In this document: positions 7,234 to 23,403 of the stretch, piece after piece
Layout of the letters: each line of letters begins with the position of its first letter
Numbering within the stretch: the stretch's first letter is position 1
Source of the DNA: a virus
Reading direction: 5' to 3' (one strand)
DNA length: 25,962 bases
IMG/VR virus record: IMGVR_UViG_3300029812_000007
Location: 1-25,962 of that record
Made by a program: the position numbers and the translations under genes
The notes under the pieces: generated by a model
What the model was told of the DNA's origin: nothing
What the model saw: only the letters and a program-made list of their open reading frames with translations
The model's database searches: none

Positions 7234-7323
7234 CTAGTCAATCGGGTCGATTGGAAGTTCTTTTTGGGCTTTCACCTTGCCGTAGCTACTCCCAGCAAGC
7301 TGGTTCTGTTCCTTATCTGGCAT
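7234..7323 (-). CDS. 29-residue ORF between head genes
   Basis: ATG at 7323 overlaps the gpF-like stop as TAATG, and a GGAAG sits just upstream. It encodes 29 residues (MPDKEQNQLAGSSYGKVKAQ...) with no recognised motif and ends in TAG. The next 67 nt to the protease start have no gene. It may be a small real peptide, or part of the duplicated segment bounded by the 25-bp repeats. Confidence 0.35.
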   Translation of the reverse strand: MPDKEQNQLAGSSYGKVKAQKELPIDPID

Positions 7324-8954
7324 TAACTTCCTAATATTGCTGGGGCTAGAGCACATTCGCAGTTCTTGACAATTATGTTATTGGCGATGTATAATTGTTC
7401 TAAAGACTGGAGGTCGTATACATGTCCCGCATAATTGTAATTCCTAATCTTGATGATTTGCTCAGGCGTTATCAAACTGGCGAATCGGAATTGAAATTGT
7501 CTAGAGAGTTCGGTATAAGCAGGCGAACTATCCGTAGGCGATTGCTCAATATTGGTATCACGCCTCGGAATCGTAGCCAAGCTAATATTATCACAATGAG
7601 CAGGCTGTCCCCTTCTGAACGCAGTGCCTTGACTGCCAAAGCCCATGAAGCTGTTAGAGGGAGAAAACACTCTATCGCCGAAAAGGAACAACGAGCTAAG
7701 ACTAGGGAGGCTAAAGGACTTGGTATCTCCCCAGCAGAAATCATGCTTGCTGATATGCTCAAGTCTCAAGGAATGATTAATGTCACCCATCAAAAAGCTA
7801 TCGGGGTTTATAATGTCGATATCGCCATCAAAGAACCCCGCATCGCCATAGAAATCTTCGGTGGAGGTTTTCACCATATTCAGCACCATTCCATTTTGCA
7901 TCATAAGCGAATTCCATATATCCTCAATGAAGGCTGGTCTATAGTCATTATATGGGTCAATGCTAGACGTTATCCGCTTACTATCGAGGCAGCTAATTAT
8001 ATAATCACTCTCTTTCAACGTCTTAGCCTTAATAAAACCCGAAGGGGTGAGTATCATGTGATTAGGGGTAATGGTGAGCTTGTGCCCATTCTCAGTAGTG
8101 AATTCAATTGCATCCCCGTTGTAGAATGCCCGACTTCCAGAGATAGTAAGGGGCGCTTCCACTCTAACATCAGGTAGTAAGCAGTTGGGATGCGCGGGTG
8201 GCGCCATATCGCCACTGGGAAAAGTGTCATCCACAGGTATAACTCCAGCAGCTTCATTCTCCGAGCATATATCGCAATCAGAGGTACCGGGCCATATCCA
8301 TTGCTTACCGCTAATCCCCATGTCTTTCATGGTGTCGATAGATGCACTAGAGAGCGCACTAGCGGTTTCAGTTCGGGCAATCATAACCGCCCTATATCGG
8401 CGCATATCCACAAACTCTCCCCTGATATCCCTGGCCAAGCCCGGGATGCCACGCTTATTGGTTATCCCGTCTGATATAGTCTTGGCCAGCCTCTTCTTAG
8501 TCTCCTCATCCATCTTGGTGACTAGGGTTGCGCAGTGCTTCTCTGCCCAATCTATCGCCTGCTCTATCGGGGGGCCTTCATAGGCTATCGGAATGCCCGC
8601 CTTGGTATGTCCCCAAGTGGTCATCTGAGCCGATCCATTAACATAAATAGCTACTTCCTGGCTTGCCAACTCTGCCCTCAACGGCTCATGAAGCATGGCA
8701 AGGATGGGATCCAGCGTACTGTGAATCCCGTCCCAAGCCCCCTTCCTCATCGCAGCTTCTTGAATTACATATTTATAATATAGCTCCTCAAGGATATCCT
8801 CCGACAAAGCGTTCTCCAAGTTGGAGAAATACCGCTTTATCATGCGCTCTATCCTCAAGGCCATCCGCCTGCTTCTGGGCGATCGCGGATTAGCCGGTAT
8901 CTGAGCCTCAATTAAATCAATTAGACTTTCTAACTCTCTTTCTACCGTTACCAC
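7323..8954 (-). CDS. Head morphogenesis protein (Mu gpF-like) with intein
   Basis: The precursor is 543 residues. The N-extein (1-257) has a helical N-terminus and the gpF-type core RYRAVMIARTETASALSSA...WIWPGTSDCDICSENEAAG...FPSGDMAPPAHPN. The C-extein is only 12 residues (CECALAPAILGS). Joined, they give HPNCEC, the usual metal-ligand-like ending of this minor head family, so splicing is needed for a normal protein of 269 residues. This family helps attach portal or initiate head assembly. The start is GTG at 8954, with GAGAGG about 10 nt upstream, overlapping the small zinc protein gene by 38 nt; a later Met is possible. The intein interval is described separately. Confidence 0.85.
   Translation of the reverse strand: MVTVERELESLIDLIEAQIPANPRSPRSRRMALRIERMIKRYFSNLENALSEDILEELYYKYVIQEAAMRKGAWDGIHSTLDPILAMLHEPLRAELASQEVAIYVNGSAQMTTWGHTKAGIPIAYEGPPIEQAIDWAEKHCATLVTKMDEETKKRLAKTISDGITNKRGIPGLARDIRGEFVDMRRYRAVMIARTETASALSSASIDTMKDMGISGKQWIWPGTSDCDICSENEAAGVIPVDDTFPSGDMAPPAHPNCLLPDVRVEAPLTISGSRAFYNGDAIEFTTENGHKLTITPNHMILTPSGFIKAKTLKESDYIISCLDSKRITSSIDPYNDYRPAFIEDIWNSLMMQNGMVLNMVKTSTEDFYGDAGFFDGDIDIINPDSFLMGDINHSLRLEHISKHDFCWGDTKSFSLPSLSSLFLFGDRVFSPSNSFMGFGSQGTAFRRGQPAHCDNISLATIPRRDTNIEQSPTDSSPAYTELSRQFQFRFASLITPEQIIKIRNYNYAGHVYDLQSLEQLYIANNIIVKNCECALAPAILGS
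7324..7348. repeat. 25-bp direct repeat, copy 2
   Basis: Partner of 7170-7194 (22 of 25 identical). Here it codes for the C-extein end ALAPAILGS of the gpF-like protein and carries its stop. In copy 1 the same frame would read AVAPAKLGG and stop, a ghost of the same C-terminus. Confidence 0.6.
7409..7414 (+). promoter_or_regulatory. Shine-Dalgarno of the antisense endonuclease gene
   Basis: A perfect GGAGGT lies 7 nt before the ATG at 7422 on the plus strand. On the minus strand the same bases are part of the intein block F codons for DLQ. A canonical ribosome binding site embedded in a conserved intein block supports real translation of the plus-strand gene. Confidence 0.75.
7422..8177 (+). 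CDS. Vsr/EDxHD-like homing endonuclease, antisense to the intein
   Basis: 251 residues, and the only convincing plus-strand gene of the window. Residues about 13-52 are a helix-turn-helix (LSREFGISRRTIRRRLLNIGI). Residues about 60-100 form a basic linker of NUMOD-like character (AHEAVRGRKHS). Residues about 103-195 resemble the Vsr-like nuclease fold: Glu106 in PAEIMLADML, Asp133 in YNVDIAI, Glu144 and His151 in RIAIEIFGGGFHH, and then YILNEGWSIVIIWV. Vsr-like EDxHD endonucleases are known beside split inteins and introns of phages. Here the gene lies entirely inside an intein, opposite to it, and each codon is the exact reverse complement of an intein codon. It would cut intein-free alleles and drive homing. 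The C-terminal about 50 residues lie opposite blocks A and B and may be tail extension. Confidence 0.82.
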   Translation: MSRIIVIPNLDDLLRRYQTGESELKLSREFGISRRTIRRRLLNIGITPRNRSQANIITMSRLSPSERSALTAKAHEAVRGRKHSIAEKEQRAKTREAKGLGISPAEIMLADMLKSQGMINVTHQKAIGVYNVDIAIKEPRIAIEIFGGGFHHIQHHSILHHKRIPYILNEGWSIVIIWVNARRYPLTIEAANYIITLFQRLSLNKTRRGEYHVIRGNGELVPILSSEFNCIPVVECPTSRDSKGRFHSNIR

Positions 8955-12137: not shown

Positions 12138-12543
12138 GTGGCTCTATGCCTTTCCCTATCTCATTCAGCAATCTCTTGGTACTCTCAGAGCTTACGATAA
12201 TCTCATGCTTGATTGGCTCTCCGCCTGTGCCTGTTATCTCCTGCTTGTCTGCCATACCTAACCAATTCTTGGCGAGGAATATAGCCATCTGAGGACTCTT
12301 TTCTGACATCTTGAACATATTACGGCGAAGGCTTATCAATCCCCCTACTCGGTGCTTCTCAAAATACTCTTGGAATGAAATACCAAATTGCTCCCTAACT
12401 CTAGACACTATCGTGGTTATCCCACAGTGAAACCAGGCAGCAATTTCAACCTCCGAGCATTGCATATAGCAAAGCCTTTCAAGCTCTTTGAAATCAATAT
12501 CTATCTTTTGTCTATGTCCTCTATTATTACTATGATTAGCCAT
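12106..12543 (-). CDS. terS: Terminase small subunit-like DNA-binding protein
   Basis: 145 residues. An N-terminal HTH-like section ([34 protein letters not shown]) is followed by [31 protein letters not shown], a segment common in phage small terminases, and a C-terminal part that would contact the large subunit. It recognises the packaging site. Its start overlaps the stop of the preceding HNH gene by 8 nt (ATGGCTAA), so the two are translationally coupled. Confidence 0.85.
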
Positions 12544-13069
12544 TTACCTTATCCCTTAATAATCTTAATAATTCTTTATTTTGTCCTTGCAGTAATCTGA
12601 TTTGTTTTCTAAAATCTTCAATCATATCCGATTGCTTATCAATCTTCTTCTCTACAATAGTAAGTTGATTGTGTTGCATTTCTTGAATAAGTTGAAGGTT
12701 CTCTATCCTATTATCATCCTTTATACCATTTTTGTGATGGACTATCTCCCACGAATGAAGGCAACGGTCAAGGTGCTTAGCCATCACCAAGCGATGTTCA
12801 AGAACATAGCCCTTGCAATTAACCATTGAATAAAAGAAGTCATCGGGTTGAAGTTTAATCTGAATATAACCCTGATAATTCTTTCTCCGCCCACCTTTCC
12901 AATTTGCTGGTCTTTCTCTACAACCCCGACAACGAGGACTTCTAGGTTTCCCTCTTATTATTCCTTCCCATCTTTCCTTGCCACACCCCTCACAAGCATG
13001 CCAAATATACCTATGGTCACCCCTCAATCCAATTTCCCCTGCTTTTCTAATATCCCCAATTTTAGGCAT
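12536..13069 (-). CDS. HNH homing endonuclease, paralogue 2 of 3
   Basis: 177 residues. The N-terminus (MPKIGDIRK...) is followed by a zinc ribbon ([10 protein letters not shown] ... CRGCRE), a linker NWKGGR, then the HNH core: [14 protein letters not shown] and [20 protein letters not shown]. The C-terminus is a coiled coil ([26 protein letters not shown]). It is a free-standing endonuclease of the phage HNH_3 type. Both ends overlap neighbours: the ATG overlaps the upstream stop as ATGCCTAA, and its TAA overlaps the terS start. Insertion next to terminase is a common site for such genes. Confidence 0.88.
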
Positions 13070-19837: not shown

Positions 19838-20344
19838 CTAATTTTCGAACACCTTGAATATCATCTGAGAATTATCTAGTGCCTTCTCAAGTAATTTATT
19901 TTCTACTTCTAGTTCACGAATGCGTTGTTTTAATGCCTCCAAATGCAAGGCGAAAGAATGTTTACCTTTAGGCATAGCCACCAAATTGCGAGGGCGGTTA
20001 TCGTCCTTAATACCGTTCAGGTGATGGATAATCCAGCCTTCTGGTACTGTTTTGCCGTGAGCTTGCTCCCAAACTATAACATGCTCCCGGACATAGTTAT
20101 TATGAGCTTTAGGGTGATTGGGCGCCAATATAAGTATATAACCTGATGGCTGTTTACTCCTTCCACCTTTCCAGTGTGGATTTTTACTGCCTATATGGGT
20201 AGTGCATTGGGCACAAAGTTGATATTTTGGTTTTCCTCTATTCAAAACTACCCAACGCTCCTTACCACAGTGTGGACAGGCATTCCAAATATGACGATGG
20301 TCTGATGCCTTGTAGCCCTTTCTTATTTCACCAATGAGTGGCAT
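19838..20344 (-). CDS. HNH homing endonuclease, paralogue 3 of 3
   Basis: 168 residues starting MPLIGEIRKGYK. The zinc ribbon (ACPHCGKERW...CAQCTTHIG), linker NPHWKGGRSKQ, HNH core ([37 protein letters not shown]) and C-terminal coiled coil (QRIRELEVENKLLEKALDN) match the other two paralogues. The start at 20344 (GGAGGG upstream) was chosen because all three begin MPxxGxIRK. Unlike them it does not overlap its neighbours; it seems to have its own promoter region. Confidence 0.88.
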   Translation of the reverse strand: MPLIGEIRKGYKASDHRHIWNACPHCGKERWVVLNRGKPKYQLCAQCTTHIGSKNPHWKGGRSKQPSGYILILAPNHPKAHNNYVREHVIVWEQAHGKTVPEGWIIHHLNGIKDDNRPRNLVAMPKGKHSFALHLEALKQRIRELEVENKLLEKALDNSQMIFKVFEN

Positions 20345-20462
20345 AATTCCCTCCAATAAGAAGCCCTCGCTCAGGCGGCATTTTCGGTAAGGAAACATCC
20401 GTTTAACCTGATTGAGGGCATAAAATAAATGCCTCTCGGATTTAGTTCCCTTACCTACTTAA

Positions 20463-21933: not shown

Positions 21934-22680
21934 TTATTTATTCGCTACCCGCAGGATTTTATCAGCTTCGCTAACATACAACTTGATTTGCTGGCAATTC
22001 ATCTTTGGTAGATGGTAGAAGCTCTCAGCTTGGTCAATCCAAATAGGACAATAGGAGCCATAAAACTTTTGGAGTGTTTTGATTATGTCCATTCCAACCG
22101 CAATTTGCATCCCATTATTTAGACCGCTGGAATATGGGACTCCATCAACTGTAGTAATACAACACTCTTCAATCCCACCATTTACCAAAATCTCGAATAG
22201 TTTAAACCTAGCATACTGGAATCGGCTGTTTATCTTCTCCTCTAGCATCTTCACCTTTGTCCTGGTGAATTGCTCCATAAGATATAACGCCTTCTCTATC
22301 TGTTCATGCTCTGTCACTAGCCTGCTTTCCTGTTGTTTTAATTCCTCAATACGCTGTAGCCTAGCCTTGCGCTGTTCTGCCTGCGCCAATTCATGCTCAA
22401 GCTCTGCGATTTGATTATCAATCTGGGTATCATCTTTGGTATGATTTGATTCCTCTTTCTCCAGGGATAGGAGCACCGCCTTGGTATCCGCAATCTTTTT
22501 ATTGACTTTAACTAGGTTCGGTTGTATTTCGGATAATTCCTGTTCAAGTGCAGCCTTTCGCTTATAAAATCCTTCAAGCTTGGATTTGGTTAGGTTGATT
22601 TGTTCAATAATACCTTCATGCCGTATTGCCTTATTAAGATTAAATGCCCTCTGTGCAATTTCTATTTGTTTTGTTTCCAT
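21934..22680 (-). CDS. SbcC/Rad50-like ATPase, C-terminal half
   Basis: 248 residues. The long coiled coil (about 20-135) returns from the zinc hook to the head. Then follow FEILVNGGIEECCITTVDGVPYSSGLNNGMQIAVGMDII, with a degenerate signature motif near 185-190, and Walker B CPIWIDQAES (Asp216). There is no Walker A. The last part (CQQIKLYVSEADKILRV) is the usual end of phage SbcC-like ATPases. The first codons overlap the HNH stop as TAATG, so the half would be made by re-initiation. The missing N-terminal half is at 23446-24441. Confidence 0.85.
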   Translation of the reverse strand: METKQIEIAQRAFNLNKAIRHEGIIEQINLTKSKLEGFYKRKAALEQELSEIQPNLVKVNKKIADTKAVLLSLEKEESNHTKDDTQIDNQIAELEHELAQAEQRKARLQRIEELKQQESRLVTEHEQIEKALYLMEQFTRTKVKMLEEKINSRFQYARFKLFEILVNGGIEECCITTVDGVPYSSGLNNGMQIAVGMDIIKTLQKFYGSYCPIWIDQAESFYHLPKMNCQQIKLYVSEADKILRVANK

Positions 22681-23291
22681 TACTCCTTTACTCCTCCCTT
22701 TAATAATCTAATTTCCTCTCTGAGATTCTGTATCTGTTTCAACCTACCATCAATTAAACCTTTGATATAACCATCATGGTATCCTTTGCTATGCGCTCTA
22801 CTATGGCTACCATTAAGAGACATCTCAAGGTTATCCTCTAGATTATCTGATTTATTCCTAATGTCAGTAAACCTTATCCCCTTGTGGTGAACTATCTCCC
22901 ACGAATGGAGGCAACGGCCTAAAGCTTTTGCCATCACTAGGCGGTGTTCACGAACATAGCCATTCTTGCTTGCCATCGGATAAAAGAAGCTATCTGGAGA
23001 AACCCAAACCTCAATATAGCCATCTCTTTTATTAAGAAAACGCCCACCTTTCCATCTACTAGAATTTTCTCCGCAAGGATGAATATATGTAGATTCACGG
23101 TGAGCCTCACTTTGTCTCCTTTTTGTTTCTTCTGAGAGATGGTGTCCGATATTGTTACAACGAATACATCTCTTATTGACTGGATGCCCTCTTACAATTT
23201 GAACCCATCTCTCGTGCTCGCATATTTCACAAGCTGCGAAAATCTGCTTTTGCCCTGTTTTGTTTCTTCTTATTTCTCCTAACTCAGGCAT
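22680..23291 (-). CDS. HNH homing endonuclease, paralogue 1 of 3
   Basis: 203 residues starting [14 protein letters not shown]. Zinc ribbon CEICEHERW...CIRCNN, then SRWKGGRF, the HNH core [26 protein letters not shown], and a C-terminal coiled coil ([16 protein letters not shown]). After VHHK there is a run [20 protein letters not shown] in place of the tight NGIKDDNR of its paralogues, so the last HNH element is altered. The start at 23291 overlaps the upstream stop as ATGCCTGA. It sits precisely in the zinc hook of the ATPase gene. Confidence 0.87.
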
Positions 23292-23403
23292 CTTTCTTTT
23301 CCCTATCCCAATATGGCGTTTTACATTTCCCACAGCGTAAGGGATGGGATTTTTTACTCGCCCATTCATGCCCACACCGCTTGCACTTATGTATGTATAT
23401 CAT
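23284..23403 (-). CDS. 39-residue zinc-ribbon protein
   Basis: ATG 23403 with a perfect GGAGG at 7 nt. The protein has [13 protein letters not shown] and [10 protein letters not shown], a compact CxxC...CxxC zinc ribbon ending in a charged tail. It is inserted with the HNH gene inside the ATPase gene. It belongs to a class of tiny zinc ribbons common in phages and host genomes; no function assigned. Confidence 0.7.

Follow-up and report, generated by a model that had tools for sequence, protein, structure and literature searches.

Mobile inteins normally carry their endonuclease as a domain in the same reading frame. Dassa et al. in 2009 reportedly described fractured genes, in which split inteins are accompanied by a free-standing Vsr-like endonuclease. 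Among homing endonucleases, the EDxHD enzymes form an established family (PMC3943268). In the nuclear group I intron Dsq.L2066, an antisense homing endonuclease gene is expressed and active (PMC9548176). The ShiLan domain, an insertion in a phage methylase, contains an out-of-frame HNH whose route of translation was left as speculation (PMC11855218). We analysed a viral DNA stretch of 25,962 nucleotides (IMG/VR record IMGVR_UViG_3300029812_000007, hereafter the window), in which an intein on the minus strand and a nuclease gene on the plus strand occupy the same DNA. We assign a probability of about 0.88 to the reading that the intein is mobile and that its homing endonuclease, instead of being an in-frame domain, is encoded by a separate gene overprinted in antisense on the intein coding sequence.

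The head gene (7323-8954, minus strand, 543 codons including the intein) encodes a MuF/gpF-like (SPP1 gp7-type) phage head morphogenesis protein, which matched Pfam Phage_Mu_F (4.4e-8) and head proteins of PHROG (best 2.1e-35). A preliminary description of this DNA had placed an intein with blocks A, B, F and G at 7362-8183 of the gpF-like gene, and these coordinates proved exact. The insertion of 274 codons between HPN and CEC matched Pfam Intein_splicing (3.9e-9), and residue arithmetic put its Cys1 codon at 8181-8183 and its last Asn codon at 7362-7364. The four blocks, Cys1, the TxxH motif, the terminal Asn and Cys+1 are all present and share the reading frame of the host protein. Block B (T-P-N-H, residues 296-299; 8058-8069, minus strand) is antisense to the residues VIRG of the nuclease, and block F (G-H-V-Y-D-L, residues 510-515; 7410-7427, minus strand) has a His codon, CAT, that is antisense to the nuclease ATG. 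A linker at residues 387-480 (7515-7796, minus strand), antisense to the HTH and helical region of the nuclease, is predicted to be disordered (AlphaFold pLDDT <50), and the Hint halves were modelled with a pLDDT of about 90 and gave inteins as their Foldseek matches. Across 78 relatives, the columns C258, T296, H299, N531 and C532 are conserved, with H299 invariant. The intein of the window ends in Lys-Asn followed by Cys+1, its penultimate residue being Lys and not His. By Pfam match, conserved residues and predicted fold, the insert is a Hint intein, which presumably splices.

On the plus strand, a gene of 251 codons (7422-8177) runs codon-on-codon antisense to the intein from an ATG at 7422 to a TAG stop at 8175-8177, with plus position 1 paired to minus position 3. 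At the N-terminus it encodes a resolvase/transposase-type HTH, with helices at residues 10-43 (7449-7550, plus strand) that matched Pfam HTH_23/HTH_7 and the HTHs of resolvases, transposases and homeodomains; in some relatives the N-terminal region is longer and resembles a second HTH. Structure matches and conservation delimit a catalytic domain at residues 101-203 (7722-8030, plus strand), containing E106, Y130-N131-x-D133, E144, R163 and G171-W172. Against Pfam, the window protein gave the HTH models and a weak MTES_1575 REase match (1e-4, under the Pfam cut-off), and PF18741 was matched at E<=0.01 by 62 of 72 relatives. A profile of the relatives matched the PDB entries 3hrl (1.1e-5) and 3r3p (I-Bth0305I, 5.8e-5). 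The AlphaFold model built from the 72-sequence alignment had a mean pLDDT of 90, with a poorly ordered tail of low confidence at about residues 221-251, opposite intein blocks A-B. The top three PDB entries in a Foldseek search with this model were I-Bth0305I, 3hrl and Vsr (probability about 1, E-values modest), and the VIA-align Z scores for Vsr (1cw0, 11.2), 3hrl (10.1) and I-Bth0305I (3r3p, 9.9) exceeded those of unrelated rows. Structure and profile matches both point to a PD-(D/E)xK-like, Vsr-type alpha/beta core.

The 251-residue HTH plus Vsr/EDxHD-like nuclease proposed in the preliminary description was borne out by these relatives in nuclease families. Its proposed set of catalytic residues held for the acidic members, namely E106 (64/72 relatives), E144 (71/72) and D133 (72/72, partly ascertained because D133 sits within the motif used in the search described below), but H151, the putative counterpart of the His in the EDxHD motif, is present in only 43/70. 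D133 was also invariant in nine loci gathered without the search motif, and R163 and W172 are conserved in the 72-sequence alignment; since the motif search partly ascertains residues 127-135, conservation there was not counted as proof. Homology, selection pattern and structure support the assignment of the plus-strand protein as a Vsr/EDxHD-like nuclease, which would be expected to cleave DNA. Elsewhere in the window, the minus strand carries three similar ORFs (12536-13069, 19838-20398 and 22680-23375), of which two are free-standing genes for HNH_3 endonucleases of the homing type and one has no Pfam match, so that the phage appears rich in mobile endonucleases.

A predicted sigma-70 promoter, TTGACA-18-TATAAT (7366-7395, plus strand), lies opposite block G in the stretch that separates the end of the intein from the nuclease ATG, and it agrees with the consensus at 12/12 positions (p=0.005 against synonymous recoding); equally perfect copies were found at loci L053 and L130. 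Over 56 loci, the promoter score was 8.3, compared with 4.3 in synonymous recodings, and the enrichment gave a combined p of ~1e-25, the loci being not fully independent. A promoter at p<=0.05 was detected in 27/56 loci, so that a good embedded promoter is not found in every locus. The Shine-Dalgarno sequence GGAGGT (7409-7414, plus strand) lies 7 nt 5' of the nuclease ATG, antisense to the block F codons and just after them, and a match of at least 5 nt occurred in 27/56 loci, compared with 8.8 in recodings (maximum 17). The His codon of block F (G-H-V-Y), whose antisense provides the nuclease ATG, was CAT in 49/56 loci, where 20.1 were expected from the exteins of the same genes (p=1e-18). 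Because the start codon, Shine-Dalgarno sequence and promoter are antisense in blocks F-G, the entire nuclease unit, from promoter to stop (7366-8177), is contained within the intein (7362-8183). This arrangement strongly suggests that the nuclease is expressed separately from the head protein, as had been proposed.

Searches showed that the two-strand arrangement is widely distributed. Homologues of 25-80% identity to the nuclease were found in at least 120 phage records (tblastn, 251-aa query) and at least 120 IMG/VR contigs, and most of the tblastn matches listed lay under annotated head-morphogenesis, MuF or minor-capsid genes. The hosts of these phages include Salmonella, Gordonia, Pseudomonas, Klebsiella, Vibrio, Acinetobacter, Haemophilus/Aggregatibacter and Cronobacter, and the homologues examined there lie opposite head genes, as does one in Mycobacterium phage Sejanus. 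In all eight diverse phages inspected, the nuclease frame was intact, in unchanged phase and antisense to a head-gene intein; the nuclease relatives of Sejanus and of Ca. Promineifilum plasmid III likewise lie antisense within inteins of head genes. A profile scan from a diverse 9-sequence alignment found no conserved stretch, and contigs were therefore sampled with a motif in the DNA that encodes the active site of the nuclease, a criterion that is blind to the opposite strand. This motif matched at least 120 viral contigs and 7 genome contigs. Among the matches listed, the nuclease ORF was intact in 120/120 viral contigs, and three genome-contig matches (L136-L138) had no nuclease ORF. Pooled with the earlier loci, these matches yielded 138 hits to the nuclease HMM, and in 138/138 a long ORF, nearly always an intein, faced the nuclease in codon-on-codon phase.

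The opposite ORFs matched Intein_splicing in 70/78 cases and Phage_Mu_F in 52/78, and the extein families also include Phage_min_cap2 and, in one case, uracil-DNA glycosylase; in this last case (L121:1885-3384, plus strand), a uracil-DNA glycosylase gene and not a head gene contains the intein with its antisense nuclease. One contig (L111) has two antisense nuclease ORFs, each facing an intein-like ORF, which suggests two such inteins in one phage. At L139, L089 and L026, the intein apparently starts with Ala (HPN/A) instead of Cys, and the antisense nuclease is retained. The antisense nuclease is almost unannotated; annotators call it occasionally, as in phage PK1, where it is entered as a hypothetical protein.

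Comparison of head-gene alleles supported mobility. The head protein of Salmonella phage ER10 (L141) is highly similar to that of PK1 and lacks exactly the C...HN insert, this exact empty site coming from a Jerseyvirus homologue, a lineage other than that of the window. The head gene of a Kagunavirus (L145) is also without the intein. Between PK1 and PST-H1, 52% of third positions differ in the N-exteins of the head genes, and the inteins are nearly identical; between the window and L010, the N-exteins differ at 51% of amino acids and the splicing blocks at 2-8%. The lower silent divergence of the inteins could partly reflect double coding constraint, and it is also low in block F-G beyond the nuclease. 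Mobility, probably by homing, is thus supported both by alleles that lack exactly the intein and by nearly identical inteins in head genes that have diverged. With its promoter-to-stop unit inside such an insertion, the nuclease gene appears to be carried by the intein and spread with it, in agreement with the preliminary description. Only two of the 138 hits collected clearly lacked an opposite-strand intein: at L068 (929-1855, minus strand) and L099, which represent one lineage, the nuclease has a free-standing, convergent gene that overlaps the end of a MuF gene without an intein. Nuclease and intein are therefore separable, and the free-standing state could be ancestral (pre-intein) or have followed loss.

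This free-standing copy beside an intein-less head gene also fits another explanation, that the nuclease is real and now has a non-homing role, such as phage exclusion, defence or control of the head gene by antisense RNA, and that the intein carries it passively. The functions of Vsr/DUF559-type nucleases are diverse, and antisense transcription across the head gene could regulate it. However, the exact presence or absence of the intein, its insertion at one conserved HPN/C motif, its transfer between diverged head genes and the relatives of the nuclease among homing endonucleases are all better explained by homing, and we regard a non-homing role as improbable.

The strand under selection was read from codon positions. 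In 11 related pairs, we counted the differences at sense positions 1/2/3 by region. The N-exteins (425/288/873), blocks A-B (53/27/97), blocks F-G (26/17/68) and C-exteins (101/68/272) all showed the usual third-position excess in the head-gene frame. In the core of the overlap, the counts were 555/201/374, with the excess at sense position 1, which is position 3 of the nuclease. Expressed as divergence, the core had.25/.09/.17 and the exteins.14/.10/.31 (Fisher p=2e-44 for core against exteins and 3e-14 for core against blocks), and the direction was the same in 10/11 pairs. Protein differences in the core were lower for the nuclease (20%) than for the intein (30%), and this order was reversed outside it; the window and its closest relative L010 showed the same strand-specific pattern on their own. 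Substitutions conserving only the minus-strand protein were thus not what we found, the core showing the opposite. Constraint is partitioned, with the nuclease core lying opposite the intein linker, predicted to be disordered, and the splicing blocks overlying the nuclease start signals and its tail, which was modelled with low confidence. The earlier suggestion that the two proteins are forced to co-evolve was therefore half right, since they are not in close co-evolution and constraint is divided between them. The intein linker consensus DFHGDG...GxVxVV, read from the sequence, is the antisense of the active-site strands YNxDxA...VAVE of the nuclease, and this mirroring explains a conserved and otherwise seemingly meaningless motif.

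The weak constraint on the intein strand in the core, together with Lys in place of the penultimate His in the window intein, might instead mean that the active mobile element is the nuclease gene, opposite which lies a degenerate intein that has lost the ability to splice. We consider this still less probable than a non-homing role, because blocks A-B and F-G are under sense-strand purifying selection, as the exteins are; Cys1, the block B His, the last Asn and Cys+1 hardly vary among the 78 relatives; and the Hint fold was predicted with high confidence.

Since conserved inteins yield conserved antisense strings, we kept the intein protein of each locus and redrew its synonymous codons from the usage of the gene itself (50 recodings per locus). 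The antisense frame was open in 10.7% of recodings and in 59/59 real loci, although openness alone is partly ascertained, the real loci having been picked as HMM matches on open frames; the blind motif sample and the substitution test are free of this ascertainment. The nuclease HMM score had a median of 218 in real loci and of 57 bits in recodings (maximum 160), and the real score exceeded those of all 50 own recodings in 59/59 loci, so synonymous recoding of the intein destroys the nuclease. A chance antisense ORF, whose likeness between loci would be the mirror image of a conserved intein, was ruled out by this test, the codon-position divergence and the structure match, and its probability is close to nil: GC-rich genes often have an open codon-on-codon antisense frame, the GC-rich Gordonia loci have several long antisense ORFs and recodings retain some HMM score, but the frame is also open in the less GC-rich phages of Haemophilus, Vibrio and Salmonella, divergence tracks the nuclease frame, and the protein has a confidently modelled Vsr fold.

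For the mobile intein with an overprinted homing endonuclease, we propose the following sequence of events. Transcribed and translated from the minus strand, the head gene would give a precursor protein from which the Hint domain would excise itself, joining the exteins at HPN/C. The plus-strand promoter within block G would give a short mRNA, with the Shine-Dalgarno sequence and ATG provided by the antisense of block F, from which the 251-aa protein would be made, combining an HTH that reads DNA with a nuclease domain of Vsr/EDxHD type. This nuclease may cut intein-less head-gene alleles of co-infecting phages, and repair of the cut allele would copy in the intein plus the nuclease gene, which would be copied along because its promoter-to-stop unit lies wholly in the intein. 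As the substitution pattern and models show, conflict between the two proteins is avoided by partition, the nuclease core coming mostly from linker DNA and the catalytic blocks of the intein falling on the control signals and floppy tail of the nuclease.

With unusual clarity, the locus shows two functional proteins, unrelated to each other, that overlap almost fully on opposite strands across very diverse phages, and the coding strand of each region can be read from substitutions. It offers an alternative way of building a mobile intein, with nuclease expression uncoupled from the late head gene, and inteins filed as having no endonuclease may carry one on the opposite strand. Overprinting, and how homing elements arise, can be tested directly in cultivable Salmonella phages with intein-plus and intein-minus alleles. 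An antisense endonuclease gene in an intein was not found in the literature searched (published CC-BY papers). These loci very likely represent a widespread, undescribed class of tailed-phage mobile inteins, in which a complete nuclease transcription unit (promoter, ribosome-binding site, start, HTH-Vsr and stop) is antisense to the splicing domain and a linker motif mirrors the active site.

The closest precedents are homing endonuclease genes that lie antisense within group I introns, and a phage insertion that does not splice and contains an out-of-frame HNH. Dsq.L2066 likewise carries its endonuclease gene opposite the host-gene strand within a self-splicing element, but that element is an RNA intron in rDNA with a His-Cys box enzyme, and no protein is read from the other strand (PMC9548176). 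The ShiLan domain is also a phage homing insertion with two overlapping frames and its nuclease in a frame unused by the host gene; it differs in belonging to the HNH family, in having no detectable splicing domain and in being described as an alternate frame, in a text that makes no mention of antisense or reverse strand (PMC11855218). With I-Bth0305I, an EDxHD phage homing endonuclease (PDB 3r3p), the nuclease shares the catalytic fold by profile and structure and a further DNA-binding region beyond the catalytic domain; I-Bth0305I was deposited as a mobile intron protein, whereas the gene described here is antisense to an intein and its HTH is N-terminal. Fractured genes have in common with this locus an intein-associated Vsr-like homing endonuclease as a separate gene, but there the endonuclease lies between split-intein halves, and here intein and nuclease are read from the two strands of one DNA segment. 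Mobile inteins whose endonuclease is in frame, such as PI-PfuI and PhoVMA, resemble the window intein in their Hint blocks A, B, F and G, in encoding the endonuclease between blocks B and F, and in a conserved-motif insertion site with exact intein-less alleles. Unlike theirs, the endonuclease here is not a domain that is spliced out but the product of a separate gene on the antisense strand, which has a predicted promoter and a ribosome-binding site of its own.
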